Positions 1,355 to 20,953 of a DNA stretch of 64,000 nt are shown piece by piece. Position 1 is the first letter of the stretch; each line of letters begins with the position of its first letter. Under the pieces are notes generated by a model. The model worked only from the letters and a program-made list of their open reading frames with translations, made no database searches and was not told where the DNA came from. Source of the stretch: Marinobacter sp. LQ44 (GTDB taxonomy: Bacteria; Pseudomonadota; Gammaproteobacteria; Pseudomonadales; Oleiphilaceae); contig NZ_CP014754.1 in assembly GCF_001447155.2 (NCBI RefSeq), positions 2,480,001 to 2,544,000 on the forward strand, written 5' to 3'. The position numbers were made by a program, and so were the translations under genes.

Positions 1355-1461
1355 CCGGTTGGGGTGGGCTTTCCAAAACACGCTCCTTCGGCACATCCAT
1401 GTGGCGCTTGGGCTCCGCCATCCATGGCTCCGCACAGTTTTGGAAAGCCCACCCCAACCGG
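1355..1461 (-). repeat. Intergenic inverted-repeat element E1 with structured core
   Basis: Perfect 25-base inverted repeat: left arm 1355-1379, right arm 1437-1461, separated by 57 bases. The arms end in CCAAAAC / GTTTTGG next to the core. Read on the minus strand, the core contains GCCATGGATGGC and CACATGGATGTG, two short self-complementary stretches each centred on GGA, and five GGA triplets in total. It lies 105 bases beyond the tpx stop and upstream of the MATE gene. E2 (3458-3656) and E4 (20777-20872) carry related cores with different arms. The function is unknown; terminator, mRNA 3' element or protein-binding RNA are possible. Confidence 0.85.
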
Positions 1462-1566
1462 CTGCCCTAACGCCGGAGTCTTGCCGGCGCAGCCCAAGCT
1501 CGGAACGGGTAGTCCAAAACAATATCAACGCTGCGTAAATGCTCTGACCACCCGGTTGGGGGTGTT

Positions 1567-2064
1567 TTACAGCACCTTCAGCGCCGCTTCGTAATCCGGC
1601 TCGTTTTTGATTTCGTTGACCAGTTCGCTGTGCAGCACTTTGTTGTTCTCGTCGAGGACCACGACCGCACGGGCGCACAGACCGGCAAGGGGGCCGTCCT
1701 GGATGGCGACGCCGTAGTCTTGCTGGAAGCTGTAGTTGCGGAAGGTGGAGAGGGTTTCAACGTTGTTCAGGCCTTCGGCTCCGCAGAAGCGGGCGGCGGC
1801 GAAGGGGAGGTCGGCGGAGATGACGAGGACGACGGTGTTGTCGAGGCTGCCGGCTTTTTCGTTGAATTTTCGGGTGCTGGCGGCGCAGACGCCGGTATCG
1901 ATGCTGGGGATGATGTTAAGAATCTTGCGTTTGCCGGGCCAGTTGTCGAGTTTTACTTCTTCTAGGCCGCTGTTGGTTAGGGTGAATGGGGCGGCGTTTT
2001 CGCCGGGCTGGGGGAATTTGCCGCTGACGTCGATGGGGTTGCCGTCCAGGGTGACGTTGCTCAT
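1567..2064 (-). CDS. tpx: Thiol peroxidase (Tpx, 2-Cys peroxiredoxin)
   Basis: Reduces hydrogen peroxide and alkyl hydroperoxides with thioredoxin as electron donor. The 165 residues match the usual Tpx length (about 165-168). The peroxidatic cysteine is C60 in [11 protein letters not shown] and the resolving cysteine is C94 in RFCGAEG, the spacing of atypical 2-Cys Tpx proteins. No signal peptide is visible at the start (MSNVTLDG), though Tpx homologues have been reported as periplasmic or cytosolic. The ATG is preceded by an AAGGAG-type ribosome site. It is a single gene with an MFS pump upstream and element E1 downstream. Confidence 0.96.
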
Positions 2065-2159
2065 GGTGTGCTCCTTGTCTTGTGGTTTTGGATCTCTGCA
2101 ATCTACTCTATGTAGCTTACTTTGGATGAGTTTTCATCCCCTTTCAGTAATCCGTGGAT

Positions 2160-2175
2160 AGCTTTCTAGAAAGCT
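2160..2175. repeat. 16-base perfect palindrome between the MFS gene and tpx
   Basis: AGCTTTCTAGAAAGCT is a perfect palindrome in the 152-base gap between the end of the MFS gene and the start of tpx. A smaller hairpin, GGATGA-GTTT-TCATCC (2124-2139), lies beside it. There is no T-run, so a classical terminator is not supported. The palindrome could be an operator for tpx. No regulator can be named. Confidence 0.4.
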
Positions 2176-2216
2176 CCGTAGCCTTTTCCGGGATTCTTTG
2201 GGTGATTATGTTGTGG

Positions 2217-3434
2217 CTAGTGGGAAGCGCCTTGGGCCTCAAAACCCGGTGCCGGGTATCGCTGCACTAGAAACAGGTAACCAATCAGGCCGAGCCCTGC
2301 GCATATCGCAATAATCATGGCCATCACCAGTGGGGTGCCGTCGTGGAGAATGCCGACGAGGGCGCCGGCGGCGGCAGCGGCGGCCATTTGGATGAAGCCG
2401 AGCAGGGCGGAGGCGGAGCCGGCCATGGTGGGGTGGTTGGCTAACGCGCCGGCCATGGTTTGGGGCAGGACCATGCCGGTGCCGGCCATGAACAGGGCTT
2501 GCGGTAGCACCACGGCCCAGGGGCTGTAGATGTTGTGGTAGGCAAGCAATGTCATGGTGGCGCCGGCGGTGAGGGTGGTGGCCAGGCCGTAGAGTAGGAT
2601 TTGGTCTGGGAGGTAGCGCCCGGCGAGGCGGATGGAGGCCATGTTGCCGATCAGGTAGCCACCGGCGGTGATGGCGGTGTACAGGCCGAAGTGTTCCGGT
2701 GCAACGCCCAGGACGTCGATCAGTACGAAGGCGGAGCCAGACAGGAAGGCGAACAGGCCGCCGTAGATGGCGGCGCTGGTAAAGGTGTAGCCGATGAAGG
2801 TCATGTCGGTGCTGATTCGGCGGTAGTTGCTCATGAGCTGGCAGAATCTGAACGGTTGCCGGTGTTCCGGGCGCAGGGGTTCTGGGATGCCGAAGGCGAT
2901 GACGGCCATCATGATCAAGGCGTAGCCCGCCATGACGATGAAGATCCAGTGCCAGTCCATGGTGGCTACGATGAAGCCGCCGAGCGTCGGTGCCACTGCC
3001 GGTGCCAAAGCCATCATGCCGGCCAGCAGGGCGAGAATTTTTGCCGCTTCCCGGGGCGTATAAACGTCCCGCACCACGGCTCTGCCGAGGACTGGTCCTG
3101 CGGAACCGCCGAGTGCTTGCAGGAACCGGAACAGTTGCAGGGTTTCAATGTTACTGGCCAGGGCGCAGCCGATGCTTGCAAGGGTAAACAGCAGCATGCC
3201 GCCGATCATCACAGGCTTTCGGCCAAAACGATCAGCCAACGGCCCACAAACTAGCTGGGCAAGGGCAAAACCAATCAGATAGATGCTTAGAGTGAACTGA
3301 ACCTGATCGGTACCGGCGTTAAAGTCAGCCCCAATCTGCGGCAGCGCAGGCAGGTACATATCAATGGCCATCGGCCCGAGGGCGACCGCGGCGGCGAGTA
3401 AAATGGTGGTCCAGATGCTGGTGAGTGCGAGCAC
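2217..3434 (-). CDS. Bcr/CflA family drug:H+ antiporter (MFS)
   Basis: Inner-membrane proton-driven efflux pump of the 12-helix drug resistance type; about 405 residues, typical for the family. Visible signatures are GPMAIDMYLPALPQIGADF at the N-terminus (Bcr/CflA hallmark), the MFS motif A loop GPLADRFGRKPVMIGG, and GSAGPVLGRAVVRD, matching motif C-like sequence. The open frame extends further upstream through repeat element E2, but the product cannot begin there. GTG at 3434 preceded by AGGAATAACC gives the right N-terminus. Substrate is not predictable; homologues handle bicyclomycin, chloramphenicol or sulfonamides. Confidence 0.9.
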   Translation of the reverse strand: MLALTSIWTTILLAAAVALGPMAIDMYLPALPQIGADFNAGTDQVQFTLSIYLIGFALAQLVCGPLADRFGRKPVMIGGMLLFTLASIGCALASNIETLQLFRFLQALGGSAGPVLGRAVVRDVYTPREAAKILALLAGMMALAPAVAPTLGGFIVATMDWHWIFIVMAGYALIMMAVIAFGIPEPLRPEHRQPFRFCQLMSNYRRISTDMTFIGYTFTSAAIYGGLFAFLSGSAFVLIDVLGVAPEHFGLYTAITAGGYLIGNMASIRLAGRYLPDQILLYGLATTLTAGATMTLLAYHNIYSPWAVVLPQALFMAGTGMVLPQTMAGALANHPTMAGSASALLGFIQMAAAAAAGALVGILHDGTPLVMAMIIAICAGLGLIGYLFLVQRYPAPGFEAQGASH

Positions 3435-3457
3435 GGTTATTCCTGACCCCGGAGTTG

Positions 3458-3656
3458 GGTGAGAGTGGGGTAGTGCCTCCCAAAACACGCTCCTTGCGGC
3501 ACATCCATGTGACGCTTGGGCTCCGCCCCTCAGCGCTAATTGCTCCTGCGTCGCGCTGAGGGTCCTGGGCAGGCCATCCATGGCCAGCCCGTGAAGCGCT
3601 TCCGCGCTCCACCCCTGGCTCCGCACAGTTTTGGGAGGTACTACCCCACTCTCACC
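3458..3656 (-). repeat. Intergenic inverted-repeat element E2 with expanded core
   Basis: Arms of 29 bases at 3458-3486 and 3628-3656 are complementary with one mismatch and differ in sequence from those of E1. The 141-base core starts and ends like the E1 core but carries an extra inner part with its own 10-base hairpin (3527-3536 with 3553-3562). On the minus strand it keeps GGCCATGGATGGCC and CACATGGATGTG, both with GGA in the loop, and several more GGA triplets. It lies 89 bases beyond the LysR stop and just upstream of the MFS start. The 311-base gap here holds this element and otherwise only AT-rich sequence near 3710-3745. Confidence 0.85.
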
Positions 3657-3745
3657 AGCGAACATATGGAGGGGGAGTCTAGGGCGGCCGGCCCAGAAAA
3701 ATAACGGCTTAACCTTTCATGTAATACATGAACAATATTGATTGA

Positions 3746-4657
3746 TTAATCGTGCAAGCCGTTCATGGTGGCCGCCACGGAGTTTACCTGGTTGCGAACC
3801 CATCGGTGGGCGGGGTCTGCCTGGTGGCGGCGGTGCCAGAGCATGAGCAAGGTGAAGGGGTTGTATTCAAAGGGTAAAGGTACGTAGTCGAAGTCTTGCA
3901 TCAGCTGCGTGCTCATCCGTTCCGGGGCCGATGCCAGCAGGTTGGTACCTCTTAAAAAGGCAGGCAGTCCGGAAAAGTTTGAGACGGTCACCACGCTGCG
4001 CCGTTTCAGCCCCCGTGCCTCCATGGTGCTGTCCAGCCCGGGCTTCTCGCCAGTGGCGAATAGCACGGTGATGTGGTCGGCGTTCATGTAATCCTTCAGG
4101 TCAGCCGGCGCGTCACGGTGATTCTGGTCGTAGAACACCACCATCCGGTCCGCCATCAAACCCCGTTGCATGATATCTGTGGTTTCCGGCGCAAACGGAC
4201 TGATCACCAGATCACAAGCCTCTTTGCGCAGCAGATCGGCATTGGGAATACCGGAGGGAATGACCTGCAGGTGAATACCTGGCGCTTGCTCCCTGAGGGT
4301 CTTCACCAAGCCTGGTAACAGCAAATCCCGCTGGTAATCGTTGGCGGCAATGGTAAAAGTAAACTCCGCCGTCGCCGGTTCAAACGGTGGCCCCGAGGGC
4401 AGGGTGCGCAGGTCGTCCAGTAGCTGACGGATGTGCGGCCCGGTGCGCAGGGCATAGTCGGTCGGCACAATGCCCCGTCCGGATTTCACGAACAAAGGGT
4501 CGCCGAAGGCCTGGCGCAGACGCTCCAGGGTATGGCTTACTGCCGATTGCGTCACCCCCAACCGAACGGCCGCCCGCGACACCCCGCCCTCGTCAAGAAC
4601 AGCAACGAAGGTGGCGAGGGATCTCAGGTCCAGGTTCAACATATCAACGGGCTTCAT
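3746..4657 (-). CDS. LysR-type transcriptional regulator
   Basis: About 303 residues. The N-terminal winged helix-turn-helix is clear: DLRSLATFVAVLDEGGVSRAAVRLGVTQSAVSHTLERLRQAFGDPLF, followed by the linker helix and a substrate-binding domain of the NodD/SyrM-like subgroup (HTHLERLRQxxxDPLFVKxGRGxxPTxxA). It is divergent from the haloacid dehalogenase gene with a 139-base shared region, so it may control that gene; this is inference from position. Start chosen at ATG 4657 (MKPVDMLNLDLRSL); ATG 4642 is an alternative. The effector is unknown. Confidence 0.9.
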   Translation of the reverse strand: MKPVDMLNLDLRSLATFVAVLDEGGVSRAAVRLGVTQSAVSHTLERLRQAFGDPLFVKSGRGIVPTDYALRTGPHIRQLLDDLRTLPSGPPFEPATAEFTFTIAANDYQRDLLLPGLVKTLREQAPGIHLQVIPSGIPNADLLRKEACDLVISPFAPETTDIMQRGLMADRMVVFYDQNHRDAPADLKDYMNADHITVLFATGEKPGLDSTMEARGLKRRSVVTVSNFSGLPAFLRGTNLLASAPERMSTQLMQDFDYVPLPFEYNPFTLLMLWHRRHQADPAHRWVRNQVNSVAATMNGLHD

Positions 4658-4746
4658 GGTTGGAAGTTTAGGCGAGCGCGGGGGCCAAGTCACCAGAAAG
4701 CCGGGCCTGGTTGAGCGGTTTTGCCACTAAAGTCCGGTTGGTCTAA

Positions 4747-4764
4747 ATTGAGTAATCGTTCAAT
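4747..4764. promoter_or_regulatory. Candidate LysR operator in the divergent promoter
   Basis: ATTGA-N8-TCAAT fits the T-N11-A dyad typical of LysR regulators. It sits 33-50 bases before the haloacid dehalogenase start, in the region shared with the LysR gene. Such short dyads occur by chance, so this is a weak proposal. Confidence 0.3.
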
Positions 4765-4796
4765 ATTGAGGCGCACTCCCCGGAACAGGAGCAAAC

Positions 4797-5474
4797 ATGA
4801 AAACCACTCTGGCGTTTGATGTTTACGGAACCCTGGTAGATCCGATGGGCATGTCCCGACTGCTTGAGCAGGATGCGGGCGAGCAGGCAGCGGCGGTTGC
4901 CGCGCTCTGGCGGGAAAAACAGCTGGAGTTTTCGTTCCGGAAGGGCCTGATGCGAGTCTACGAAGACTTCGGCGTATGCACCCGCCAGGCCCTGCGCTAT
5001 GCCATGGCCGTGCACCAGTTGGAGCTGAGCAAGGCGCGGGAAGACCAACTCATGGCCGCCTACCTGTCCCTCCCCGCGTTTGACGATGCCTTGCCAGCCC
5101 TGCAGGCCCTGAAAGGCCAATACCCTCTGTTTGCCTTCTCCAACGGCAGCTACCCCGCCCTGGAAAAGGTGCTCGGCCACAACAACCTGCTGGACCAGTT
5201 CGATGGCCTGGTGTCGGTGGATGACATCAAAAGTTTCAAACCCGATCCCGCCGTCTACACCTACGCCCGCCGCGCCACCGGCGCCTGGGATAGCCCCCTG
5301 TGCCTGGTATCCAGCAACGCTTGGGATGTGATCGGTGCCAGAGCGGCCGGGTTGTCAGCGATTTGGGTAAAGCGGGATGAAAACAGGGTTTTCGAAGACT
5401 GGGGCATAGAGCCGTCAGCAGTAATCCAAAGCCTTTCTCAACTTCCCGAGAGTCTCAAGGCTCTTAATACCTGA
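4797..5474 (+). CDS. Haloacid dehalogenase, type II
   Basis: Cytoplasmic HAD-superfamily enzyme expected to hydrolyse L-2-haloalkanoic acids to D-2-hydroxy acids. At 225 residues it matches the L-DEX family. Motif I is FDVYGTLVD with nucleophile D8; R39 in LWREKQLEFS is the conserved halide/substrate-contact arginine region; motif II is FSNGS (S115-N116); motif III K148 in SFKPD; SSNAWDVIGA (172-181) completes the active site. A good AGGAG ribosome site precedes the ATG. It is a single gene divergent from a LysR regulator and ends 38 bases before inverted repeat E3. Actual halogenated substrate is unverified; some members act on other small acids. Confidence 0.88.
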   Translation: MKTTLAFDVYGTLVDPMGMSRLLEQDAGEQAAAVAALWREKQLEFSFRKGLMRVYEDFGVCTRQALRYAMAVHQLELSKAREDQLMAAYLSLPAFDDALPALQALKGQYPLFAFSNGSYPALEKVLGHNNLLDQFDGLVSVDDIKSFKPDPAVYTYARRATGAWDSPLCLVSSNAWDVIGARAAGLSAIWVKRDENRVFEDWGIEPSAVIQSLSQLPESLKALNT

Positions 5475-5511
5475 AAGCAGCTTTCAATAGGCATATCAAA
5501 CAGTCAGCGAA

Positions 5512-5589
5512 GGCAGGGGTTGGAGAGGGGTTCCAAAACAATCAGGAAAACCACGTTTTCCGTTTTGGAACCCCTCTCCAACCCCTGCC
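5512..5589. repeat. Intergenic inverted repeat E3, probable bidirectional terminator
   Basis: Perfect 28-base inverted repeat (5512-5539 and 5562-5589) around a 22-base centre that itself folds (GGAAAAC-CAC-GTTTTCC, 5545-5561). The arm end TTCCAAAAC resembles those of E1, but the shared core is absent. It sits between two convergent genes, 37 bases from one stop and 19 from the other, a position fitting transcription termination from both sides or 3' end protection. It is probably a core-less member of the same repeat family. Confidence 0.8.
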
Positions 5590-5608
5590 GACAGACTCCG
5601 ATAACGGG

Positions 5609-6760
5609 TCAGCCAGACCGAGCATCCAGCCACTCCGCCAGCTCCAGCCAGGAAGCCTTGGGCGCCTTACTCCCGGCCAGAATTCCCATATGCCCCCCAG
5701 GCGCTACCCGAAACGTCTTGTCGGTGGAACTGACATGATCCATCACCCGCTTCGCCGCCCCCGGCGTCGCCAAGGTGTCCTCCTGGCCGGCAATCGCCAG
5801 TAAGTTGGCATTCACATTCTCCAGCCGCGCGAAATCCTCGCCGATCTGGATCTGCCCCTTAGCCAGCTGATTATCAATCCACACCCGCACCACCGTATCC
5901 TGAATCACCCCGCCGGGGTAGGCCACCATCCGGTCCAGAAACGCCGACGTGGTGGCATGGTTGGTGACAAACTCCCGGTCACCCAGGCGCACAATCAGCT
6001 CCCAGTAACCCATCACACTGCCAATCGGATTGCTCAGCTTGAAACCGATGGTGTTGGCCCAGCCAGGTGTGTGAAACCAGTGCGGCTTCATACTGTGCAA
6101 CTGAAACCCCGTGCGTTTGCGTACGACACCGGCAACATCCGCAATGCGCTGGTACATCCAGCCGATGGCGCCGGAGGCGTGGCTGTCGATCGGCAGGCCC
6201 AGCACAATGGCATTGCGAATGTGCTGATCCTTGCTCAGGGCCGAGTAGAACAGTGTGAACATGCCGCCCATGCTCCAGCCATGCAGCGACAATTCCTGCT
6301 CGCCGCTGTGCTCCCGCACCCGGTTCAGATAGGCCGGCAGCAACTCCGCCACATAGGTATGCATGTTGTAGTGGGTGTGCTCCCGCTTGGGAATGCCCCA
6401 GTCAATCAGATACACCTCGAATCCCTTCGCCCTCAAAAAACGAACCAGACTGCGCTGGGGGAACAGATCGTAGATCAGCATGTTCACTGCCAGGGGCGGG
6501 ATGATCACAATCGGTGTGCGATGGGTTGTGCGTTCCACCGGAATCACCTGATCGTCCAGCTCAATGAAATCCTCTTTCAGTGGCGGGTAGTAACGCAGGC
6601 TGACCAATCCGTCCGAATAGAGGGTTTCAAACGGGGTCTGGCCTGCCTGTACCAGGCTGGCGGCGCGAAACACCCGGTCAAAGGCGTTGCCGGCATAAAG
6701 GGTGCCTTGGCGAGCCAGGTCAGAGGTCAGGTTGAGGGCAGTTTTTACGGGGTTAAGCAT
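5609..6760 (-). CDS. PHA synthase-like alpha/beta hydrolase
   Basis: About 383 residues resembling PhaC/PhaC-III-like proteins: PIVIIPPLAVNMLIYDLFPQRSLVRFLRAKGFEVYLIDWG is the PHA polymerase N-terminal pattern, and GQEDTLATPGAAK plus GGHMGILAG supply the late acid/histidine region. True synthases use a cysteine in G-x-C-x-G; here the nucleophile elbow is GWSMGG with serine at about S163, so a hydrolase or thioesterase activity is as likely as polymerisation. Start at ATG 6760 (MLNPVKTALNL) behind GGAAAC; the open frame extends 27 codons upstream without family resemblance. No phasin or other PHA gene is next to it. Confidence 0.75.
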   Translation of the reverse strand: MLNPVKTALNLTSDLARQGTLYAGNAFDRVFRAASLVQAGQTPFETLYSDGLVSLRYYPPLKEDFIELDDQVIPVERTTHRTPIVIIPPLAVNMLIYDLFPQRSLVRFLRAKGFEVYLIDWGIPKREHTHYNMHTYVAELLPAYLNRVREHSGEQELSLHGWSMGGMFTLFYSALSKDQHIRNAIVLGLPIDSHASGAIGWMYQRIADVAGVVRKRTGFQLHSMKPHWFHTPGWANTIGFKLSNPIGSVMGYWELIVRLGDREFVTNHATTSAFLDRMVAYPGGVIQDTVVRVWIDNQLAKGQIQIGEDFARLENVNANLLAIAGQEDTLATPGAAKRVMDHVSSTDKTFRVAPGGHMGILAGSKAPKASWLELAEWLDARSG

Positions 6761-6940
6761 GTGTGTTTCCGTTGGTACATCAATCACTGGTCCGGACAGG
6801 ATAGGCGGGCGGTTGCTCGGGTACCATGGCAAAACCGTCACATCTGGCCGGCATAATGGTCACTTCAGGCCACTGCCCAATCCTGTATCTCATTGTTATG
6901 ATATCGGCCTTCCCGTAACTACAATGAAAACAGGATCCTC

Positions 6941-7840
6941 ATGCTCAGTTTCTTGCCTGCCCCGATCATTGGCGTGCTCAACTCCATTCTGCTGGGACTC
7001 AACACCCTGTTCTGGTGCCTGCTGCTCTATATTCCGGCGGTGCTGAAACTGATTATCCCGCACAAGGGGTTCCGGGTGCTGTGCACCAAGGTGATCATCT
7101 GGATCTCAGAATCCTGGGTGGCTTGCAACACCGGCTGGATGAAACTGACCCACGGCACCCGCTGGCAGGTGACCGGTGCAGACAACCTGAAACGGGAAAG
7201 CTGGTATCTGGTGCTCAGTAATCACCAGAGCTGGGTGGATATCTTTGCCATGCAGCGGGTGTTTAACCGCCGGGCGCCATTCCTCAAGTTCTTCCTCAAG
7301 CAGCAACTGATCTGGGTGCCGGTGATTGGCTTGGCCTGGTGGGGCCTGGATTTCCCATTCATGAAACGCTACACCCGGGAGTACCTGATCAAGCACCCGG
7401 AAAAACGCGGTGAAGACCTGAAAGCCACCCGCAAGGCCTGTGAAAAATTCCGCTACACCCCGGTAAGCGTCATGAACTTTGTCGAAGGCACCCGCTTTAC
7501 CAAAGCCAAACACGACAAGCAGAAATCCCCCTACCAGAACCTGTTGCTGCCGAAAGCCGGCGGCGTCGCCTTTGTGCTGGATGCCATGGGCGATTCCATC
7601 GACACCCTGGTAGACGTAACCATTGCCTACCCCAACGGCGCGCCTACCTTCTGGGATTTCATGTGTGGCCGGGTGCCGGAGGTCCAGCTGGATATCAGCA
7701 CCCAGTTAATTCCGGAGCACTTGAAAGGTCGAGACTATTCCAGCGATGCCGAACATCGTCGGAATGTGAAGGAATGGCTGGGAGAGTTGTGGCAAAGCAA
7801 GGACCAGCGCCTGAGTCAGGCGCTGGCTGAGAGCGCGTGA
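6941..7840 (+). CDS. PlsC-type lysophospholipid acyltransferase (YihG-like)
   Basis: Membrane acyltransferase of about 299 residues, expected to move an acyl chain to a lysophosphatidic acid or related acceptor. Two hydrophobic stretches lie at about residues 5-35. The acyltransferase block I NHQSWVD (N94-D100, the NHx4D catalytic motif) and block III FVEGTRFT are intact. Sequence style (KFFLKQQLIWVPVIGLAWWGLDFPFMKRYT) matches the YihG/LCLAT-like branch rather than essential PlsC. The next gene is convergent with only a 10-base gap and there is no visible terminator. Acyl donor and acceptor are not predictable. Confidence 0.85.
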   Translation: MLSFLPAPIIGVLNSILLGLNTLFWCLLLYIPAVLKLIIPHKGFRVLCTKVIIWISESWVACNTGWMKLTHGTRWQVTGADNLKRESWYLVLSNHQSWVDIFAMQRVFNRRAPFLKFFLKQQLIWVPVIGLAWWGLDFPFMKRYTREYLIKHPEKRGEDLKATRKACEKFRYTPVSVMNFVEGTRFTKAKHDKQKSPYQNLLLPKAGGVAFVLDAMGDSIDTLVDVTIAYPNGAPTFWDFMCGRVPEVQLDISTQLIPEHLKGRDYSSDAEHRRNVKEWLGELWQSKDQRLSQALAESA

Positions 7841-7850
7841 ACGAAACGGG

Positions 7851-8054
7851 TCAGGACTCGTCTTCGTCTTCCACCTCATCCGGATGTTCGCGCTTGTAGC
7901 GCTCCCATTCTTCCCAATCGTGAGGCGTCCCGGCATGGGGGCGCTTCAGGTGTTTGGCGTGATCCATCGCATTTTCACGAAGACTGTGATCACGCTCTTC
8001 CTCGTCTTTGTCGAAGCCGTATTTCTTCAGAAATTCCTGGGGGCTGATGGTCAT
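7851..8054 (-). CDS. Small charged hypothetical protein
   Basis: 67 residues, rich in D, E, K and H, with no membrane segment or signal peptide (MTISPQEFLKKYGFDKDEEERD...). The ATG is preceded by GGGAGGTGCACC, a strong ribosome site, which supports translation. No recognised family. It ends 10 bases from the convergent acyltransferase stop. Confidence 0.65.
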   Translation of the reverse strand: MTISPQEFLKKYGFDKDEEERDHSLRENAMDHAKHLKRPHAGTPHDWEEWERYKREHPDEVEDEDES

Positions 8055-8111
8055 GGTGCACCTCCCTTATTCGATCCCCCTTAGATATACGTGGTGCCAA
8101 CGCCCCCGGTT

Positions 8112-8921
8112 TTAAAGTTCTGCCAGGGTTTGCAGCGCCAGTTCCTGGCCCACATCCCTAAGGGAAACCTGTCGCTCCCGCTTCTCAAAACCCCGGTCTG
8201 TAGCAATCCACCGACGATCGGCGTCGGTAGCTGGGGGCACGCCATTAGAGCTGACCATGGCCTGGATAGCGCCGTTGGTGACGTTGAGAACGCGAATCGT
8301 GAATTCATTGCCGGCAACCTGGCTGAGCTCCATCAGATAGTCCGCATGTTGGCTGAGCGCCCGCATTTCCAGTCGTGCCTGGTCTGGGGACAGACGTGAG
8401 AAATCGCCGTTCTCCAGGGCATTGTCGCTAATGCGCATGATGGCATCGCGGTCGACAATGGTGGCGCCGGCTCGGGTCAGCTGGGAGACCAATCCGGCCT
8501 GCAGATCAAAGGCCGGTGCCATCGGGGCAGAACGCCGTGCCCCCCGGGTTTCCACCTGGGCTGCACCACGGGCTTTGCCGTCCAGGCTCACGTTGCCGTC
8601 CGGAATGCTGCCATGCAGACTGCCTTGCTCTGAGACCACCACCCGCCGCTGGCTGGCCCAGTCGCTGACCTGATCGTTAAAGGCCCGGTTCCAGAAAACA
8701 GCGATCCTCGGATTGGAATTGCCCAGACCTGCCCGGAAGCGCTCAATAATCGCCTCGGCCGATTCGGTGCGTTGGGAGGCGTTGGCCTCGGCCCGCAGAT
8801 CCTGCTCGGTCAGGGGTTTCTGATGCGGCGCCTTCATGGGCGCAGCCGGGTGATCGTTAGCCGCCAGCGCCACCATAGGCATCGCCCCAAGCAACAAGCC
8901 CGCAACCAGTGAGCGGTTCAT
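8112..8921 (-). CDS. Secreted protein of the LpoB/YcfL operon, unknown function
   Basis: About 269 residues. N-terminal signal peptide MNRSLVAGLLLGAMPMVALA with a likely cut after ALA, then a soluble domain. SNPRIAVFWNRAFNDQVSDW and SQLTRAGATIVDRDAIMRI look like the CsgG/LpoB-type fold (strand of the form RIAV..., then a region naming a target residue), but this is weak similarity judged by eye. Its ATG overlaps the YcfL-like stop by one base (TGATG), so it is translationally coupled as the last gene of a five-gene envelope operon. Confidence 0.8.
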   Translation of the reverse strand: MNRSLVAGLLLGAMPMVALAANDHPAAPMKAPHQKPLTEQDLRAEANASQRTESAEAIIERFRAGLGNSNPRIAVFWNRAFNDQVSDWASQRRVVVSEQGSLHGSIPDGNVSLDGKARGAAQVETRGARRSAPMAPAFDLQAGLVSQLTRAGATIVDRDAIMRISDNALENGDFSRLSPDQARLEMRALSQHADYLMELSQVAGNEFTIRVLNVTNGAIQAMVSSNGVPPATDADRRWIATDRGFEKRERQVSLRDVGQELALQTLAEL

Positions 8922-9367: not shown

Positions 9368-9392
9368 GGTCTCTCTCCTTTTGGCGGCCGGG

Positions 9393-11244: not shown

Positions 11245-11257
11245 AAAACGTCTCCGG

Positions 11258-13171: not shown

Positions 13172-15157
13172 TCAGTCGCCTGTGGTTTCCTGGGCGCCAG
13201 CGATTTCTTCGGCCTTGATCAGCTTGAAATTGATCTGCCGGCGCTCGTCGTCCACGCCAGCGAAGCTGACGGTAACCCGCTGCTCCAGCTGGAAGATACG
13301 GCCATTCTTGTTGTGCACCAGGCGCAGGGTGACCGGATCAAAGCCGTACTTGCCCTCCAGGTCTTTGCAGCTGACAAAGCCTTCCAGCCCGTTGCTGTCC
13401 AGGCGCACGAAGAAACCGGAGGGCATGGTGCGGCTGATGGTGCCTTCCATGGGGTCTTCCGGCAGGGTCTTGGCGTAGTCGGCCTTGAGCCAGGTTTCCA
13501 GAGTGTTGGCGGCCTGGCGGGCGCGGAACTGGGTGGCTTGCAGGGCTTCCAGTTGCTGGCTGTTCAGGGGTTTGATCGGGGTGTTCCAGAGCGCCGCTTT
13601 GATCAACCGGTGCACGTAAAAGTCCGAGAATTTGCGCAGCGGTGAGGTGAAGGTGGTGTAGGCGTCCAGCCCCATGCCCTGATGGGGCGCGGCATCAAAG
13701 CCCAGCTCCGCCCGGGCCAGCTGGCGGGACAGTATGGCTTTCACCGGCACTTCGGCTTGCAGCTGGTCACTGTGTTTCATCAGTGCCTTGAAGCCTTCAG
13801 CCGTGTTGGCGTCGTGCCCGGCCAGGTGCGGCGCATGGCTTTCCAGCAATTTTCGGATGTTGTCAGCGCGGTCGTCCCGCAGGCCCGGGTGCTGGATAAA
13901 CAGGCCTTTGCCCTGCCGGGTCAGGAAGTCTGCGGCACAGCGGTTTGCGGCCACCATGCATTCCTCCACCAGCCGGTGTGCTTCGTTCTGTACCGAGGGC
14001 TCAATCACCCGGATACGCTTGTTCTCGTCCAGGCGCAGCCGGAATTCCGGACGGTCCTGGCTCAGCAGCGCGTGTTCGGCACGCCATTTACGCAGAGCGG
14101 TGGCGGCCTGGTGCAGCTGATCCAGGCTGTTGGCGACCTCGTCTGGTAAAGCCTTGATCTCGTCGTCTTCCCGGCCTTCAATCAGATGGGAAACCAGCTC
14201 GTAGCTCAGCTTGCCCTTGGAGCGGATCATGGCCTGATGGAAACTGTAATCGCCCAGGCTGCCGTCGTTATTCACCTGCAGGTCACACACCAGAGCCAGC
14301 CTGGGCACATCCGGCATGAGCGAGCACAACCGTGTGCTGATGCTGTCAGGCAGCATGGGCAGCGGCTCGCCCGGGAAATAGATAGCGGTGGCCCGGTTGA
14401 AGGCTTCTTCCTCAGCCGGGCTGCCCGGTTCGATCATCGCCGTCGGGTCGGCAATGGCAATGGACAGCGTCCAGCCAGTGGCGTTGGGCGTGGCCATCAG
14501 GGCATCGTCCATGTCCTGGGTGCCCGGGCTGTCGATGGTCACATAGGGTTGCTCGGTACGGTCTTCCCGGCCGTCGGTATGGGTCGCGACGGATTCTTCG
14601 CTCAGGGCATCGGCTTGTTTCTGAACCTCGTCCGGCCAGGCATCGGCGAGGTCGAAATTGGCCAGGGTGAACGCCCGTTCGATGCCCGGTTGGCCTGCCT
14701 TGCCAATGACTCGCAGGACTTTTGCCTGGCCTTTTCCATCCTTGAACGGGTGGCGATGGATCTGGCAGTAGATAAAGTCGTCAGGCTGGGCGCCCATGCG
14801 CTCTTTCGGTGGAATGAAGATCCAGCGGTTGATGCCCGGGGTTTCCGGTGCCACAAAATGACCCTTGCCCTTGATCAGGTAGCGACCCACGAAGGTGGTC
14901 AGGTGCGATTCCAGCAGCTCGTCTACCACGCCCTGGGTTTTGCCTTTTTCCACTTCCTGCTCGGTGACGTTCACCCGATCCCCGGGTAGCACCTTCTGCA
15001 TTTCTTCCGGTGGCAGGAACACATCCCGCCCCTCATCCAGGGCCACAAAGCCGAAGCGCCCGTTGGTAGGTTTGACCGTGCCCGGGAAGACCACCTTGTT
15101 CTGCTTGATATCGGTTTTCAGCTGGCGCAACTGATTGAGAGCGTCGGCATTGAGCAT
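13172..15157 (-). CDS. rnb: Exoribonuclease II
   Basis: 661 residues. Processive 3'-to-5' single-strand RNA exonuclease of the cytoplasm. N-terminal cold-shock-type domains (GTVKPTNGRFGFVALDEGRDVFLPPEEMQKVLPGDRV), then the RNB catalytic domain from about residue 195 with YVTIDSPGTQDMDDALM, whose acidic residues bind Mg2+, and RLCSLMPDVPRLALV. HQGMGLDAYTTFTSPLRKFSDFYVHRLI is the conserved RNB end. A C-terminal S1-like segment closes the protein (MEGTISRTMPSGFFVRLDSNGLEGFV). The length fits RNase II (about 640-660) rather than RNase R (about 800). ATG 15157 is the only sensible start. Confidence 0.93.
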   Translation of the reverse strand: MLNADALNQLRQLKTDIKQNKVVFPGTVKPTNGRFGFVALDEGRDVFLPPEEMQKVLPGDRVNVTEQEVEKGKTQGVVDELLESHLTTFVGRYLIKGKGHFVAPETPGINRWIFIPPKERMGAQPDDFIYCQIHRHPFKDGKGQAKVLRVIGKAGQPGIERAFTLANFDLADAWPDEVQKQADALSEESVATHTDGREDRTEQPYVTIDSPGTQDMDDALMATPNATGWTLSIAIADPTAMIEPGSPAEEEAFNRATAIYFPGEPLPMLPDSISTRLCSLMPDVPRLALVCDLQVNNDGSLGDYSFHQAMIRSKGKLSYELVSHLIEGREDDEIKALPDEVANSLDQLHQAATALRKWRAEHALLSQDRPEFRLRLDENKRIRVIEPSVQNEAHRLVEECMVAANRCAADFLTRQGKGLFIQHPGLRDDRADNIRKLLESHAPHLAGHDANTAEGFKALMKHSDQLQAEVPVKAILSRQLARAELGFDAAPHQGMGLDAYTTFTSPLRKFSDFYVHRLIKAALWNTPIKPLNSQQLEALQATQFRARQAANTLETWLKADYAKTLPEDPMEGTISRTMPSGFFVRLDSNGLEGFVSCKDLEGKYGFDPVTLRLVHNKNGRIFQLEQRVTVSFAGVDDERRQINFKLIKAEEIAGAQETTGD

Positions 15158-15229
15158 GGAGAAAAGACCTGGCTGTAAAATGGATGATGCAGCGGAGTAT
15201 AACGGTTATGCAGGTGGGAGTCAGATCTG

Positions 15230-16948
15230 TCAGGCCGGGTGTGTCTCCTCGCCGGGAGCAGCGTGGATGCAAACCCGGTTACGCCCTCCCCGCTTGGCCA
15301 GGTACAGGGCCTGATCGGCGTTACGTAGCAGGGTATCCATGTCATCGCCTGGCTGGCTGAAATAGCCGCCCACGCTGATGGTGACCGATGTACCCGTGCG
15401 CTGGCTTTCCTGCTCCACGCTGGCTCGCACCCGGTTGGCAATCTGTTCCAGGGTGTCTTTGTCGCAGGGGGACAGCAGCACCACAAATTCGTCGCCACCC
15501 CAGCGGCCCGGGTGGTCATAGGGACGAACCGTAGCTTTCAGCCAGAGCGCTACCCGGCACAGAATGTCGTCACCGGCCTGATGGCCACGGGTGTCGTTGA
15601 TGGTTTTGAAGTGGTCGATGTCCAACCAGATCAGCCCGAATCCCTTGCCTTCACGTTCGGCCCGCTGGATTTCCTGTTCGATGACTTCATCCAGGCCACG
15701 GCGGTTCTTCAGGCCGGTGAGGGCATCCACCCGGGCCAGCCGGTGCAGTTCTTCCGTCCGTTTCGCGACCTTGTGCTCCAACTCGGCGGTGGTATCCCGC
15801 ATCGTGCTGGTCATTTTTTCAAAGTGGTCCACCAACCGGCCGATTTCGTTATCTGGTTTGGGCAGGTAGGGCAGGTCAAACCGACCCTCCCGCAACCGCA
15901 TCACCGCAGCCTCCAGGCTCAATACCGGTTTGAGAATGCGTGATTGAATGATCAGATGAAAAGCGATCAGCGAGACCAGCAGCGACATAAGGAAGACGGC
16001 CACTAGCGGCCACAGGTAGCTGGTTGGCACCAGGGCGTTCAGGTCGAGCAAGGTGATTTCGAACCAGCCTATGGCCGGCAGGAAGGCCACTCCTGCCAGG
16101 TGCTTGCGGCCATCAATGGTGACAAACCCGCTTTCCACTGCGCCGTCCTCGCCGTTGCGCTGTTTGAGCATCTGCAACATGCCCAGGATCTGCTGTTTGT
16201 CCTGGCGATCCTCAAACAGCAGGTCCACCGTGTTCTTCTGACCTTCGGGTTTGATAATGCTGGCGAAGTCAATGTAATTGCGATCGCGGTACAGTTGAAT
16301 GGCGCCGTTGTAGTCCACGAACAGTGTGGTTATGCCTTCCTGGCCTATGTCGACAATATCTTGCAGGAAGGTGTCGAGATTGAGACCGGTGCCGACCATG
16401 CCGAGAATCTCGTTGCGCTCATCACGCATCAGCACATCAATCCACAACTTGGTGACGCCCAGTTCCTGGTCCGGGTTTACGTTCAGGTGGAAGTCCCGGC
16501 CCTCCTCAATCAGCTGGAAAAACCAGGCATCATCCGGCTTTTCCGGATCCAGTACGTAACGGAACTGGTCATTGGCATACTGATTGTCGGAATTGTTGTA
16601 GTAATAGTGGCCATTCTCCCGCAGGGCAACAAAGTAACTGTTGTCCCGAAAGTTATTGCGGAAGCTCTCCATCTGGCGGATGGCGGCGGAGGTCAGCTCG
16701 GGATTGTCCGGGCTGGCGGCCCATTGCAGCAGGGTAGAGGATTGCGCCATTTGCCGGGCCAGGCCGATTTCCCGTTCCAGGGACTGCAACAGTCGGGCGC
16801 TGTCGTAGCGCACCTGAATTTCAGTAACCTGCTTGCCCCAGCGTTCGATGATGTCTTCTGACAGCTCCCGGTAGGCCAGCCAGGAGGCAGACGCCGCGAG
16901 AATGATCAGTATTGATGCGAGGCCGAGAAGGCGGGTTTTAAGGCTCAA
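15230..16948 (-). CDS. Membrane diguanylate cyclase with Cache-like sensor
   Basis: About 572 residues. One N-terminal membrane helix (about 5-26), a large periplasmic sensor of Cache type (NNFRDNSYFVALRENGHYYYNN...WIDVLMRDERNEILGMVGTGLNLDTFLQDI), a second helix near 310-330, a HAMP segment (ILKPVLSLEAAVMRLREGRFDLP), then GGDEF. The active motif WGGDEF is intact and RPYD stands five residues before it, an allosteric I-site for c-di-GMP feedback. TTG at 16948 after AGGGACTTAGC is preferred; ATG 17044 would add 32 residues that do not resemble a lead-in. Ligand is unknown. Confidence 0.88.
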   Translation of the reverse strand: MSLKTRLLGLASILIILAASASWLAYRELSEDIIERWGKQVTEIQVRYDSARLLQSLEREIGLARQMAQSSTLLQWAASPDNPELTSAAIRQMESFRNNFRDNSYFVALRENGHYYYNNSDNQYANDQFRYVLDPEKPDDAWFFQLIEEGRDFHLNVNPDQELGVTKLWIDVLMRDERNEILGMVGTGLNLDTFLQDIVDIGQEGITTLFVDYNGAIQLYRDRNYIDFASIIKPEGQKNTVDLLFEDRQDKQQILGMLQMLKQRNGEDGAVESGFVTIDGRKHLAGVAFLPAIGWFEITLLDLNALVPTSYLWPLVAVFLMSLLVSLIAFHLIIQSRILKPVLSLEAAVMRLREGRFDLPYLPKPDNEIGRLVDHFEKMTSTMRDTTAELEHKVAKRTEELHRLARVDALTGLKNRRGLDEVIEQEIQRAEREGKGFGLIWLDIDHFKTINDTRGHQAGDDILCRVALWLKATVRPYDHPGRWGGDEFVVLLSPCDKDTLEQIANRVRASVEQESQRTGTSVTISVGGYFSQPGDDMDTLLRNADQALYLAKRGGRNRVCIHAAPGEETHPA

Positions 16949-17106
16949 GCTAAGTCCCTGCGAGTATGTGTTTTGTTTCCAACACTGAGGTTCATAATAG
17001 AACAGCCCGGAACGACAGTGTAGAAAAAACAGACAGACCCGCAAACTTCATGAGCGCGCAGCCCTGGCCGGCTGCACGCGGAAATCCTGACCTGAGTGCA
17101 AAACGG

Positions 17107-17556
17107 TCAGTTGTGCTCGGCAAACACCCGGGTCTGACCTTCCTTGTTAAACAGGATGACCTTGTAGTGGTCCTTGCGATCACCCATCTCCATGCCGGGC
17201 GAGCCTATGGGCATACCCGGAACACTGATGCCGGTGGCTTTCGGGGCCTCGCTCAACAGGCGTTTGATATCATCCGCCGGCACATGGCCTTCCACCACAT
17301 AGTCACCCACAAAGGCGGTGTGGCAGCTGCCCAGGCCTGGAATCAGGCCGGCGTCGGCCTTGATCTTGCCCATGTCATCGGTGTCGGTGGCGGTGACGTC
17401 GAACCCGTTTTCTTCCAGGTGGTCGATCCAGTCGCCACAGCAACCGCAGGTGGGCGATTTATACACGTGAATGCTTTGGGCGGCTCCGCCGGCGACGGCC
17501 GTGGTGCTGAACCCCAGGGCGGCCACCAGGCCAAGGGCTAAGGTGTGTTTTTTCAT
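17107..17556 (-). CDS. DUF411 periplasmic metal-binding protein
   Basis: 149 residues. Signal peptide MKKHTLALGLVAALGFSTTAVAG, then the DUF411 domain: HVYKSPTCGCCGDWIDHLEENGFDV with a CxCC cluster, and LGSCHTAFVGDYVVEGHVPADDIKRLL. The methionine-rich tail GMPIGSPGMEMGD suits copper binding. Members of this family accompany copper resistance genes, and here it follows the copA module after a 34-base gap. Likely role: periplasmic copper handling (inference from context and cysteines). Confidence 0.88.
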   Translation of the reverse strand: MKKHTLALGLVAALGFSTTAVAGGAAQSIHVYKSPTCGCCGDWIDHLEENGFDVTATDTDDMGKIKADAGLIPGLGSCHTAFVGDYVVEGHVPADDIKRLLSEAPKATGISVPGMPIGSPGMEMGDRKDHYKVILFNKEGQTRVFAEHN

Positions 17557-17590
17557 GGCGGTTACCTCGGTAATGCGTGTGTGAACAGGA

Positions 17591-17689
17591 TTATTGGTTC
17601 TGCCCGGATTTGTTGCCGGATAACCAGAACCACCAAACCACGGCGGCCATCAGGGCCAGCCCTGCTGCGTTGACCAGAATCGTCTCCAT
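17591..17689 (-). CDS. 32-residue single-pass membrane peptide in the copA operon
   Basis: METILVNAAGLALMAAVVWWFWLS followed by GNKSGQNQ. Its ATG shares bases with the copA stop (TGATG), so translation is probably coupled. One hydrophobic helix fills most of the peptide. It looks like the membrane anchor that starts longer cupredoxin-domain proteins often found beside copA, but the frame stops right after the anchor. Either a genuine small protein or the remains of such a gene; I cannot tell from one sequence. Confidence 0.6.
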   Translation of the reverse strand: METILVNAAGLALMAAVVWWFWLSGNKSGQNQ

Positions 17690-20274
17690 CAGTTCCGCTC
17701 CTCTTGCCTTGCCGGGGTGTGGCTGCTTTTGAACAGGCGCAGCCGGTTGGCATTGGATACCACCGTCACCGACGACAACGACATGGCGGCACCCGCCAGA
17801 ATCGGACTCATCAGGATGCCCCACACAGGGTAGAGCAGGCCGGCGGCCACGGGAATACCCATTGTGTTGTATACAAACGCTCCGAACAGGTTCTGTTTGA
17901 TGTTGGTGACGGTTGCCCGGGAAATCTCGATGGCATCCGGCACCCCGTGCAGGGACCCGCGCATCAGGGTTATGGCTGCGCTTTCAATGGCGACATCGGT
18001 GCCGGTGCCAATGGCAAAACCGACATCCGCGGCTGCCAGGGCCGGGGCGTCGTTGATGCCATCGCCCACCATGGCCACGGTGTAGCCTTTACCGCGCATT
18101 TCGCTGACCACTTCGGCCTTGTTTTCGGGCAGTACCTCGGCCCGGTAGTCATCAATGCCGGCTTTCAAGGCGATGGCCCTGGCGGTGGCATCAACGTCCC
18201 CTGTGACCATCATCACCTTGATACCCGCGTCATGCAGGCGGCGGATGGCGGCTTCGGAATCCGGCTTGATGGCATCGGCTACACCGATAACGCCCTGTAC
18301 CTGATCACCCAGCGCCAGAAATAACGGCGTGCCGGCCTCCTCGGTAATGGTGTTGGCGGCCGAATCCAGGTTTGTTACGTTGATGCCTTCGGCCTCCAGC
18401 CAGCGCCGGTTGCCGAGGCGCACCCTCTGGCCATCGAACTGACCTTGCACGCCCTTACCGTTGAGTGCTTCAAAGTCTGTCACTGTCTCAGGCTCTACGC
18501 CATCTTCACGGGCCCGGTTCAGCACCGCTTCTGCCAGTGGGTGTTCGGAATGGCGCTCCAGCCCGGCTGCCAGCGCCAACAGCGTGGCATTGCTATCAAC
18601 GGCAGTTATCCGTGTGACGGCCGGGTGGCCCTCGGTGATGGTGCCGGTCTTGTCCAGAATCACCAGATCGATTTTGCCTGCGGTCTGCAAAGCATCCCCC
18701 TGACGAATCAGCGCGCCATACTCGGCGGCCTTGCCTACGCCCACCATCACCGACATCGGCGTGGCCAGGCCCAAAGCACAGGGGCAGGCAATGATCAGAA
18801 CCGTGGTGGCTGCAATCATCATGTGAACCACCGCCGGCTCCGGCCCCACGTTGTACCACACCAGTGCCGCGGCAATGGCAACGAGCATGACTGTGGGCAC
18901 AAATACCGAGGAAATCCTGTCGGCCAGCCGGCCAATGGCCGGTTTCGAGCCCTGGGCTTTCTTCACAAGCTTGATGATCTGTGCCAGCGCCGTCTCGCTG
19001 CCGACCCGGGTAGCTTCGTAAATGATCGAACCATGGGTGTTCAGGGTACCGGCTGACACCTCATCATCCTTCGCCTTGCTCACCGGCATGGGTTCGCCAG
19101 TCAGCATGCTTTCGTCGATGCGGGTGCTGCCTTCGATAATGACACCATCCACCGGCAGTTTTTCACCGGGTCGAACACGGATGTGGTCGCCTTTGCGAAC
19201 CTGCTCAACGGGAAGGTCCTGCTCCTCGCCGTTGCGAATCACCCGGGCGGTCTTGGCCCGCAGGTCGAGCAACCGCCGCACCGCCTCAGAGGTTTTGCCC
19301 TTGGCCCGCAGCTCCAATGCCTGGCCCAGGTTGATCAGGCCGATGATCATGGCGGAAGCTTCAAAATACACATGCCGCGCCATCTCCGGCAGCAGCTCCG
19401 GCATGCTCGACACCACCATGGAATACAGCCAGGCGGTACCGGTACCCAGGGCAATCAAGGTGTCCATGTTGGCGTTATGGTGTTTGAAGGCCTTCCAGGC
19501 CCCGGTGAAGAAATGCCCACCGGTAGCGATCATCACACCCAGGGTCAGAACGCCGAAATTGATCCAGGTAAGCTGATTGGCCTCCGTCACCATCATGGTG
19601 TCGAAACCCATACCCCAGACCATCAACACCAAGCCGAGGCCCAGACTGATGGCCATCTTCACCAGCAGCACTTTGTACTGCTTTTTATCCTCCGCTTGCC
19701 GGCGATCATCAGCCGCGTCGGCATCCTCAATTACGCTGGCACCATAGCCGGCACTTTCCACCGCTTTAATCAGCGCATCCGGTTCCGCCTTGCCGCTGGC
19801 CGTGGCTGTGTTATCCGCCAGATTCATATGAGCATGGGTCACCCCCGGCACCGACAGCAACGCCTTCTCGATACTGGCAACACAGGACGCACAAGTAGCC
19901 CCGGAAACCGACAGCACAACCTGGTCATCGTCTGCTGCTTCGTATGCTTGTGCGTGTTCTTTGGCCGACTTGGCTGGTGCACCGGTATTGTCGGATTGGC
20001 TATTGCAGGACGAAGCCTTCCTCGAAGCACAACACGATGCCGGCTCTGACGTCGCCACAGGCTCCGCCGGATACCCTGCCTCGGTCACCACCCGCGTCGC
20101 CTCGGCCAGATCCACCCCGTCAGGCAAAGCCACCGTTTGTGCCTCGATATCCACCCCAACCAGCTCGGTACTGCCGGTCAACGGCTCCAGAGCATTGCGA
20201 ATCTTCTTCGCACAGCCCTGACACGAGGCTCCGGAAATCGACAACGCCGGTTTAAGCTCAGGTGCATCACTCAT
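17689..20274 (-). CDS. copA: Copper-exporting P1B-type ATPase
   Basis: About 861 residues. Inner-membrane pump that moves Cu+ out of the cytoplasm. Two heavy-metal-associated domains: the first with SCQGC (C18, C21) and the second with TCASC near residue 133, joined by a cysteine-rich linker (SCCASRKASSC). Eight membrane helices are expected, with the CPC motif in CPCALGLATP, phosphorylation site DKTGT, HP motif in SEHPLAEA and ATP-hinge GDGINDAPALAAADVG. The start overlaps the MerR gene by eight bases; ATG 20274 is favoured over the upstream frame. Cu+ specificity is read from CPC and neighbours. Confidence 0.94.
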   Translation of the reverse strand: MSDAPELKPALSISGASCQGCAKKIRNALEPLTGSTELVGVDIEAQTVALPDGVDLAEATRVVTEAGYPAEPVATSEPASCCASRKASSCNSQSDNTGAPAKSAKEHAQAYEAADDDQVVLSVSGATCASCVASIEKALLSVPGVTHAHMNLADNTATASGKAEPDALIKAVESAGYGASVIEDADAADDRRQAEDKKQYKVLLVKMAISLGLGLVLMVWGMGFDTMMVTEANQLTWINFGVLTLGVMIATGGHFFTGAWKAFKHHNANMDTLIALGTGTAWLYSMVVSSMPELLPEMARHVYFEASAMIIGLINLGQALELRAKGKTSEAVRRLLDLRAKTARVIRNGEEQDLPVEQVRKGDHIRVRPGEKLPVDGVIIEGSTRIDESMLTGEPMPVSKAKDDEVSAGTLNTHGSIIYEATRVGSETALAQIIKLVKKAQGSKPAIGRLADRISSVFVPTVMLVAIAAALVWYNVGPEPAVVHMMIAATTVLIIACPCALGLATPMSVMVGVGKAAEYGALIRQGDALQTAGKIDLVILDKTGTITEGHPAVTRITAVDSNATLLALAAGLERHSEHPLAEAVLNRAREDGVEPETVTDFEALNGKGVQGQFDGQRVRLGNRRWLEAEGINVTNLDSAANTITEEAGTPLFLALGDQVQGVIGVADAIKPDSEAAIRRLHDAGIKVMMVTGDVDATARAIALKAGIDDYRAEVLPENKAEVVSEMRGKGYTVAMVGDGINDAPALAAADVGFAIGTGTDVAIESAAITLMRGSLHGVPDAIEISRATVTNIKQNLFGAFVYNTMGIPVAAGLLYPVWGILMSPILAGAAMSLSSVTVVSNANRLRLFKSSHTPARQEERN

Positions 20275-20710
20275 GCTTTGGCTCCTCGCAACAAGACTCG
20301 GCCGAGGGATCGTCCCAGTGCTCAATCAACCGACAAATCGTATGCCCATCCGGCGTCCCGTCCGGCATCTCCTGCCAGGCAGCCAGCGCCGAAATCATCC
20401 TCTTGCGCAACTGCTGCAACTCCGCAATTTCCTGCTCAACCACCACCAACCGCTGCTGAAACACGTCCCGAACCATCGGGCACGGCGAATGATGATCATC
20501 CGCCCGGGCCAGAATCTGCCGAATCTCCGGCAGTGAAAACCCCAACTGCCGGGCTTTACGGGCAAACCGCAACCGGCGCAGATCTTCGGCATCGTACTGC
20601 TGGTAGTTGTTGTCCGGGTTGCGGGTGGGTTGTAACAGACCCTCCCGGGTGTAGAACCGGACGGTATCGGGGTTCACCCCGGCGGCGGTGGCGATCTCTT
20701 TGACTTTCAT
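20267..20710 (-). CDS. MerR-family metal-responsive regulator of copA
   Basis: About 147 residues. N-terminal MerR winged helix (MKVKEIATAAGVNPDTVRFYTREGLLQPTRNPDNNYQQYDAEDLRRLRFARKARQLGFSLPEI), a dimerisation helix, then cysteines at SPCPMVRDV, HTICRLIEHW and a terminal CC. This cysteine layout resembles the CadR/ZntR/CueR group, which senses metal ions and twists the promoter. Lying directly upstream of and overlapping copA, it probably activates that operon in response to copper. Start at ATG 20710; an upstream in-frame ATG-like codon would add eight residues. Confidence 0.85.
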   Translation of the reverse strand: MKVKEIATAAGVNPDTVRFYTREGLLQPTRNPDNNYQQYDAEDLRRLRFARKARQLGFSLPEIRQILARADDHHSPCPMVRDVFQQRLVVVEQEIAELQQLRKRMISALAAWQEMPDGTPDGHTICRLIEHWDDPSAESCCEEPKHE

Positions 20711-20776
20711 GACGGCGTACTCACCCATGTTCACGGATTTACAAAGAATCCACGACTAAAGTTGGCGGAGTGACGG

Positions 20777-20872
20777 GGCTGGGGTAGCTTCCGAAAATGC
20801 TTGTAGCCACGGATGGCGGAAAGCAAGCGTACACGGACGTACTTGCAGCGGTTTTCGGAAGCTACCCCAGCC
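20777..20872 (+). repeat. Intergenic inverted-repeat element E4 with structured core
   Basis: Perfect 21-base arms at 20777-20797 and 20852-20872, different from those of E1-E3 except for the CCGAAAA/TTTTCGG ends. Read on the plus strand, the 54-base core aligns with the minus-strand cores of E1 and E2: GCCACGGATGGCGGA, then CAAGCG, then GTACACGGACGTAC. Both small hairpins keep their pairing although bases differ from E1. It lies in the 243-base gap between the MerR gene and the zinc-ribbon gene, oriented opposite to both. Confidence 0.85.
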
Positions 20873-20953
20873 ACGGCACGTCCATCTCCAACAAACAGAG
20901 ATCAGACTAAAACCTGTGACCAACTCACAGGTCAAAGGTTTTCAGGCAGGATA

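Follow-up and report, generated by a model that had tools for sequence, protein, structure and literature searches.

Inverted repeats in the window

The window, the whole 64,000-nucleotide stretch of Marinobacter sp. LQ44 DNA analysed here, carries four inverted repeats, E1 to E4, which a window-wide scan returned as the best four, the runner-up having a 16-bp arm and a 12-nt loop. The arms measure 25, 29, 28 and 21 bp with one mismatch only, in E2, bearing out the repeats described in an initial sequence-only reading, and the folding of each of the four exceeds that of shuffled sequence by 7.6 to 13 s.d. E1 consists of a left arm (positions 1355-1379) perfectly complementary to its right arm (1437-1461), enclosing two minus-strand motifs, CATGGATG at 1419-1426 (hairpin 1) and the same motif at 1394-1401 (hairpin 2). 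In the minimum-energy fold of 1350-1466 on the minus strand these two CATGGATG hairpins pair with each other and the small hairpins are not displayed. E4 lies on the plus strand, with perfect 21-bp arms at 20777-20797 and 20852-20872 and the motifs CACGGATG at 20808-20815 (hairpin 1) and CACGGACG at 20832-20839 (hairpin 2). The Rfam model RF01731 (TwoAYGGAY) matches both elements below its cut-off of 43 bits, E1 at 1468-1348 on the minus strand with 32.5 bits and E4 at 20763-20886 on the plus strand with 35.2 bits.

The two-hairpin core that E1, E2 and E4 had been said to share is indeed present in all three, with the correction that hairpin 1 of E2 is interrupted. The arms of E2 (29 bp; 3458-3486 and 3628-3656) are the same in the sister species G018, where they enclose an uninterrupted 58-nt core, versus a loop of 141 nt in E2. 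Comparison of the two places an extra stretch of about 83 nt, with approximate ends at 3527 and 3609, within hairpin 1, which it splits; a second minus-strand CATGGATG motif (3575-3582) lies inside this stretch, and the hairpin 2 motif CATGGATG is found at 3502-3509, also on the minus strand.

E3 (perfect 28-bp arms at 5512-5539 and 5562-5589) has no two-hairpin core and instead a 22-nt loop found at four places in the genome, so that the proposal of a single family of four is not supported: E3 is a member of a separate small family. Its other copies lie at G000:C1 2272362 (minus), 2272543 (plus) and 2980826 (plus), two of the four forming a close inverted pair. The E3-type loop is composed of ATCAG and a short hairpin with ACCACGT, and the arms are again site-specific and similar in style. 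At the E3 site of the relatives G035, G032 and G060, a two-hairpin core sits inside partly shared outer arms. A fifth site in the window, a 16-bp palindrome at 2160-2175, corresponds in the relative G067 to a complete element with which it shares the outermost 8 bp on either side, and is probably, judging from this comparison, the remnant of a lost copy. The description of all elements as lying past a gene's stop applies to E1-E4, weakly for E4, near which the gene at 20954-21280 has a low score and no Pfam match; it does not extend to the family, in which 7 of 36 copies within 600 kb of the genome lie between divergent genes.

Copy number, distribution and site-specific arms

The two-hairpin core is abundant in the genome of the window. 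Of 73 candidates for a 63-nt stretch of the E1 core, 40 were scored and all 40 matched; a covariance model (R1), built from 30 aligned copies, found 120 matches at E<=1e-3 when 150 of its 1517 candidates were scored. Fifteen of these matches are the opposite strand of a listed place, leaving at least 105 places (49 on the plus strand), a number that is a floor because 150 of the 1517 candidates were scored and that does not count E2 and E3. The R1 alignment was made without E2 and weaker copies and therefore favours the E1 core class. The covariance-model search for further copies that the sequence-only reading had proposed as a check was likewise positive in 41 of 58 genomes comprising the own genome and relatives. 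Within the genus, all 37 genomes tested match R1, with 3 to at least 62 matches each (at most 62 candidates scored per genome), and in the class at least 43 of 369 genomes and at least 40 of 272 genera do so with nine candidates scored per genome. A degenerate core pattern matched at least 119 stretches, and the matches listed include Marinobacter, Microbulbifer, Stenotrophomonas, Rheinheimera, Methylotuvimicrobium, Alcanivorax, Shewanella, Yersinia and Pectobacterium. Three viral contigs (L359, L360 and L361) each carry one core, that of L361 resembling the Yersinia and Pectobacterium copies and having arms of only 6-7 bp.

The arms pair almost throughout and yet differ from site to site. Of 840 stem cells in the 30 aligned copies, 97.5% are paired despite copy-specific sequences, several positions being near random in base, which supports the earlier claim of selection on structure; pairing drops sharply beyond 28-29 bp. 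In distant genera, inverted arms of 14-51 bp flank a like core at 24 of 29 loci, reaching at least 23 bp at 22 and 14-16 bp at two, with no arm at the remaining five. In a named set of 132 pattern matches, yielding 117 distinct elements with enough flank, 96 beat all of their shuffled-flank controls, and arm length is most often 26-30 bp; the 21 copies that do no better than the controls include the enteric and some other copies with arms of 6-7 bp.

The sites themselves appear to be old and largely fixed in position, as suggested by comparison across genomes: element sites in 600 kb are mostly common to the own genome and G018, and among the best 30 of 61 genomes with the orthologous E1 locus the element is present in 19, decayed in one and absent in 10. 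By eye, the 19 elements at the E1 site carry about 14 different arm sequences, and the E1 arms of the own genome and of G018, the closest genome there (tpx 97% identical), are completely different. Over the 600 kb, some sites have arms identical to those of G018, others show mirrored point changes, and at some, such as site 1192077, the arms are new while the core is unchanged. Arms that differ from those at the same sites in G018 are also found in two more long palindromes, at G000:C1 1067556 and 1379112, whose loops are of another kind (TGTCTGAGC...GCGAGT hairpin).

To quantify these changes, 27 orthologous sites were mapped, and 19 same-class pairs were used for substitution counts, eight sites being left out for core length (four), core class (three) or orientation (one). 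In the stem, 84 of 494 positions changed, a rate indistinguishable (p 0.72) from the 16.4% divergence at 70,629 four-fold sites between the own genome and G018, which served as the neutral reference. Of the changed positions, 66 are mirrored changes that keep a Watson-Crick pair, 15 are one-sided and three are two-sided without pairing; independent neutral mutation would arithmetically yield about four mirrored changes. Three sites supply 34 of the 66 and may be whole-hairpin replacements. The prediction that arms covary was right in that pairing is kept, and the arms do not look like a case of ordinary two-step covariation. Since both sides of the stem change, at a rate close to the neutral one, the pattern is partly a matter of DNA copying and not of selection alone. 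Mirrored changes fit template-switch copying between the arms, and simultaneous changes on both sides of the stem are what PMC8794818, as excerpted, describes for template switching in RNA hairpins; recombination with other lineages could account for part of them without template switching.

Two other sources of the arms were considered and rejected. Contrary to whole-hairpin transposition via shared arms, pairs of elements with unlike flanks have at most 22 nt of arm in common (217 elements compared), and the stretches common to different loci are inner consensus only. Nor are the arms inverted copies of their target, as G018 is hairpin-less at own site 1161990 and yet the arm sequence is absent there; the junction fits a deletion between ACAGC repeats.

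Strand, core and genomic position

A single mutation in a Watson-Crick pair is about as likely to leave G.T as A.C, and RNA tolerates G.U, not A.C. When the arm pairs were read on the strand carrying the GGA motifs, 177 distinct genus elements had 61 G.U versus 7 A.C in 4248 cells (p 7e-12), the 64 own loci 28 versus 8 (p 0.001) and the 96 elements of the independent named set 129 versus 29 (p 3e-16), the own-genome value being the cautious one because the genus elements include orthologs. G.U is tolerated far more than A.C, and selection therefore acts on RNA from the GGA strand. The same asymmetry could arise from a strong mutational strand bias.

The core is under constraint. Across the 19 orthologous pairs, core positions outside the CANGGANG motifs changed at 10 of 719 (1.4%), versus 14 of 38 (37%) for the first N of CANGGANG and 6 of 38 (16%) for the second, a rate that for the first N exceeds that of four-fold sites (p 0.002). 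No change occurred at the C, A and G next to the loop (0 of 114 positions). Detection itself builds in the zero at GGA (0 of 114) and, in part, that at C, A and G; a G018 ortholog with a broken motif does occur, at site 1057590. Free N positions within a conserved surround are as expected of CsrA sites, insofar as a sequence pattern can indicate them. The excerpted CsrA review PMC7652899 gives an ANGGAN loop with free N, a ligand consensus RUACARGGAUGU and a single CsrA dimer bridging sites 10-63 nt apart; the elements present ANGGAN loops closed by C-G, with N free, as two sites within that range, a correspondence of sequence pattern. The two motifs are 23-25 nt apart in 62 of 64 own copies and in all 47 G018 copies, and GTACAGGGATGT is present in several distant cores. 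In predicted folds, hairpin 1 forms in 51 of 62 own copies and hairpin 2 in only 13 of 62, and both form (P>0.5) in 1 of 19 own copies with T at both first-N positions versus 12 of 43 others. The own genome has one copy of csrA. Across the class, csrA is present in 40 of 43 element-bearing genomes versus 273 of 326 without the element, a weak association; the three element-bearing genomes in which csrA was not seen are G150 (88% complete), G181 (67%) and G276 (98%).

The 36 own and 33 G018 elements all lie clear of called genes (orientation counts use codon-trained gene calls, and the own share covers 600 kb). A stop codon faces 55 of these 69 elements at a median distance of 49 nt, and 14 of the 69, seven in each genome, lie between divergent genes. 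Between tandem genes the GGA strand agrees with gene direction 12 times and opposes it 9 times in the own genome, and 11 and 9 times in G018. Neighbouring elements less than 400 bp apart are arranged -/+ in 12 of 12 pairs, 164-308 bp apart, the 5' ends of their GGA strands facing each other. No excess of sigma-70-type promoters was seen in 60 contexts upstream of the GGA strand. The first 60 nt of its 3' flank are A/C-rich and T-poor, with CCCAAA, GCTAGG and AACTCC enriched, a composition that may be part of the element. As strand is unrelated to gene direction, there is room for a repeat-element reading; together, position and flanks weaken a simple 3'-UTR sponge and keep a repeat-element component plausible. 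The sole Y1 (RAYT-like) transposase found in the genome (G000:C1 986048-986374) has an TTGGGGTCAGACCCC palindrome on both sides, and motifs resembling GTCAGACC are likewise present in part of the elements' 3' flanks.

Interpretation and comparison with known systems

Our best reading, towards which we lean only slightly, is that the elements are CsrA/RsmA-docking RNA modules on self-renewing stems, a reading built on comparative sequence evidence. Each copy would be transcribed from the GGA-motif strand into a structured RNA, in which a rod of about 28-30 bp would end in a core of some 52-58 nt; this core would fold into two small hairpins with ANGGAN loops, separated in most copies by 23-25 nt. 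Because this spacing is a geometry that one CsrA/RsmA dimer reportedly bridges, the elements most likely dock CsrA, and might do so either as scattered decoys or as local anchors on whichever transcript carries them. The sequence of the rod would be nearly free, its double-strandedness being what is required, and the two arms would be renewed jointly, for which template switching in the palindrome during replication is the simplest route; through such joint renewal each site would drift to its own arm sequence with pairing retained. The fuller proposition, a dispersed CsrA docking system of at least 105 loci and some 210 hairpins, old and fixed in place on template-switched palindromic stems, we offer as tentative and somewhat doubtful as a whole. 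On that view a hundred intergenic RNAs spread over the genome, in addition to a few sponge sRNAs, would buffer or organise CsrA in many Gammaproteobacteria.

The abundance of the elements could instead be that of a REP-like interspersed DNA repeat, non-autonomous and spread by copying, with a DNA hairpin as its working form and a resemblance to CsrA sites that is incidental or merely makes the host tolerate it. Several observations speak for such a repeat: no fewer than 105 intergenic places, lying on either strand; an orientation unrelated to the genes; the -/+ arrangement of all 12 close neighbours, like the REP dimers in the excerpted PMC3733652; 8 orthologous sites of 27 whose cores differ in length, orientation or class; and the remnants and missing copy at junctions with short direct repeats. 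We nevertheless judge it unlikely, since it leaves the G.U/A.C strand asymmetry and the purifying selection on the cores of standing copies to be explained, the sites are old and mostly common to G018, arm sharing between loci never exceeds 22 nt, and the only Y1 transposase found adjoins a different palindrome.

The stops that face most elements at short distance, and the symmetry of the stem, would also suit a bidirectional terminator or stabiliser of mRNA 3' ends, for which the long stem would be functional and the core a spacer; this is improbable in view of the 14 elements between divergent genes, of a core that is strand-specific and more conserved than the stem, and of the 20 nt after the 3' arm, where T makes up 14% and the T tract of an intrinsic terminator was not found in 60 contexts. 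Two-step compensation in the stems of an ordinary structured RNA, without any special copying process, would account for the RNA-level selection, which is real, and for the one-sided changes and G.U pairs that do occur. Stem change at the four-fold rate, the 66 mirrored changes versus about four expected and a G.U share of just 1.6% in 1792 own stem cells argue against it, and we give it equally little credence.

What is new here is strand-specific RNA selection, CsrA-like constraint on the core and mirrored stem change at the neutral rate; that TwoAYGGAY binds CsrA was already proposed in print, in the excerpted PMC4333381. The genus thus offers an abundant TwoAYGGAY-type case, with strand-specific evidence for RNA, and with CsrA-like constraint. 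If CsrA does bind the elements, many Gammaproteobacteria have a larger stock of CsrA decoys than has been counted, and most copies escape the present Rfam model. Template-switch maintenance of RNA stems would, moreover, become open to measurement in a bacterium, given a hundred parallel loci with paired stems evolving at the neutral rate.

Among known systems, an integron attC site has conserved outer boxes and a variable centre; the elements reverse this, the centre being conserved and the arms variable, and attC was rejected. Weak matches to microRNA and other Rfam families were set aside as chance matches to long hairpins. As characterized in the excerpted PMC3733652, REP/BIME elements (GTAG and CGTC families) are likewise intergenic, high in copy number and arranged as close inverted pairs, and many distant cores start with CGTC. 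REPs are, however, palindromes of 20-40 bp with family-wide stems, which in the GTAG family flank a RAYT, unlike the site-specific stems of about 29 bp around a 52-58-nt core seen here; with arms that are site-specific and the only Y1 transposase found in the genome flanked by a different palindrome, the elements are not REPs as defined in that source. Hairpins maintained by template switching share the changes on both sides of the stem and inversion of the loop (PMC8794818, PMC8604942); in the excerpts of those papers they are microRNA and rRNA hairpins, whereas here at least 105 loci of one bacterial genome are involved. Sponges of the CsrB/RsmZ type also repeat GGA hairpins able to occupy CsrA dimers (PMC7652899, as excerpted), but concentrate many sites in one dedicated sRNA, in contrast to two per element at a hundred scattered loci with no promoter signal found upstream in 60 contexts.

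The closest likeness is to TwoAYGGAY, a little-studied RNA family, so that the earlier statement that no named family has these features does not hold: the core is, by sequence and model comparison, a sub-threshold relative of RF01731, and would be an abundant RNA element forming a variant of a named family. TwoAYGGAY was tabulated in 2010 as a probable RNA that is not cis-regulatory (PMC2864571, in excerpt) and was described in 2014, where CsrA binding was proposed, as having a poorly conserved outer stem (PMC4333381, in excerpt); later literature, as excerpted, still terms it a family of unknown function. None of the titles and abstract openings listed for TwoAYGGAY, CsrA repeats, stem-loop repeats and palindromes describes site-specific stems around a two-GGA core. 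The RF01731 model aligns over its full length and on the same strand to E1 and E4, and gives 16 matches at E<=1e-3 in the own genome, one of them above the cut-off, at 43.4 bits; with 150 of 218 candidates scored, 104 of the 105 R1 places have no RF01731 report above the cut-off. In the class, at least 24 of 369 genomes match RF01731, 15 above the cut-off (seven candidates scored each), and only five genomes are positive with both models, of 43 for R1 and 24 for RF01731. High-scoring RF01731 members of other genera also have long paired stems; among ten such matches the strict motif pattern missed seven, and the folding set covered eight. TwoAYGGAY loops read AYGGAY, which E1 and E4 fit, and the elements here accept any base in the first loop position, the base after A being C or T in 43 of 64 own copies for hairpin 1 and 39 of 64 for hairpin 2, and otherwise A or G. 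Both have two GGA-loop hairpins capping a long outer stem of poorly conserved sequence, and what sets the present elements apart is their number, at least 105 copies in one genome, and stems that are specific to each site.
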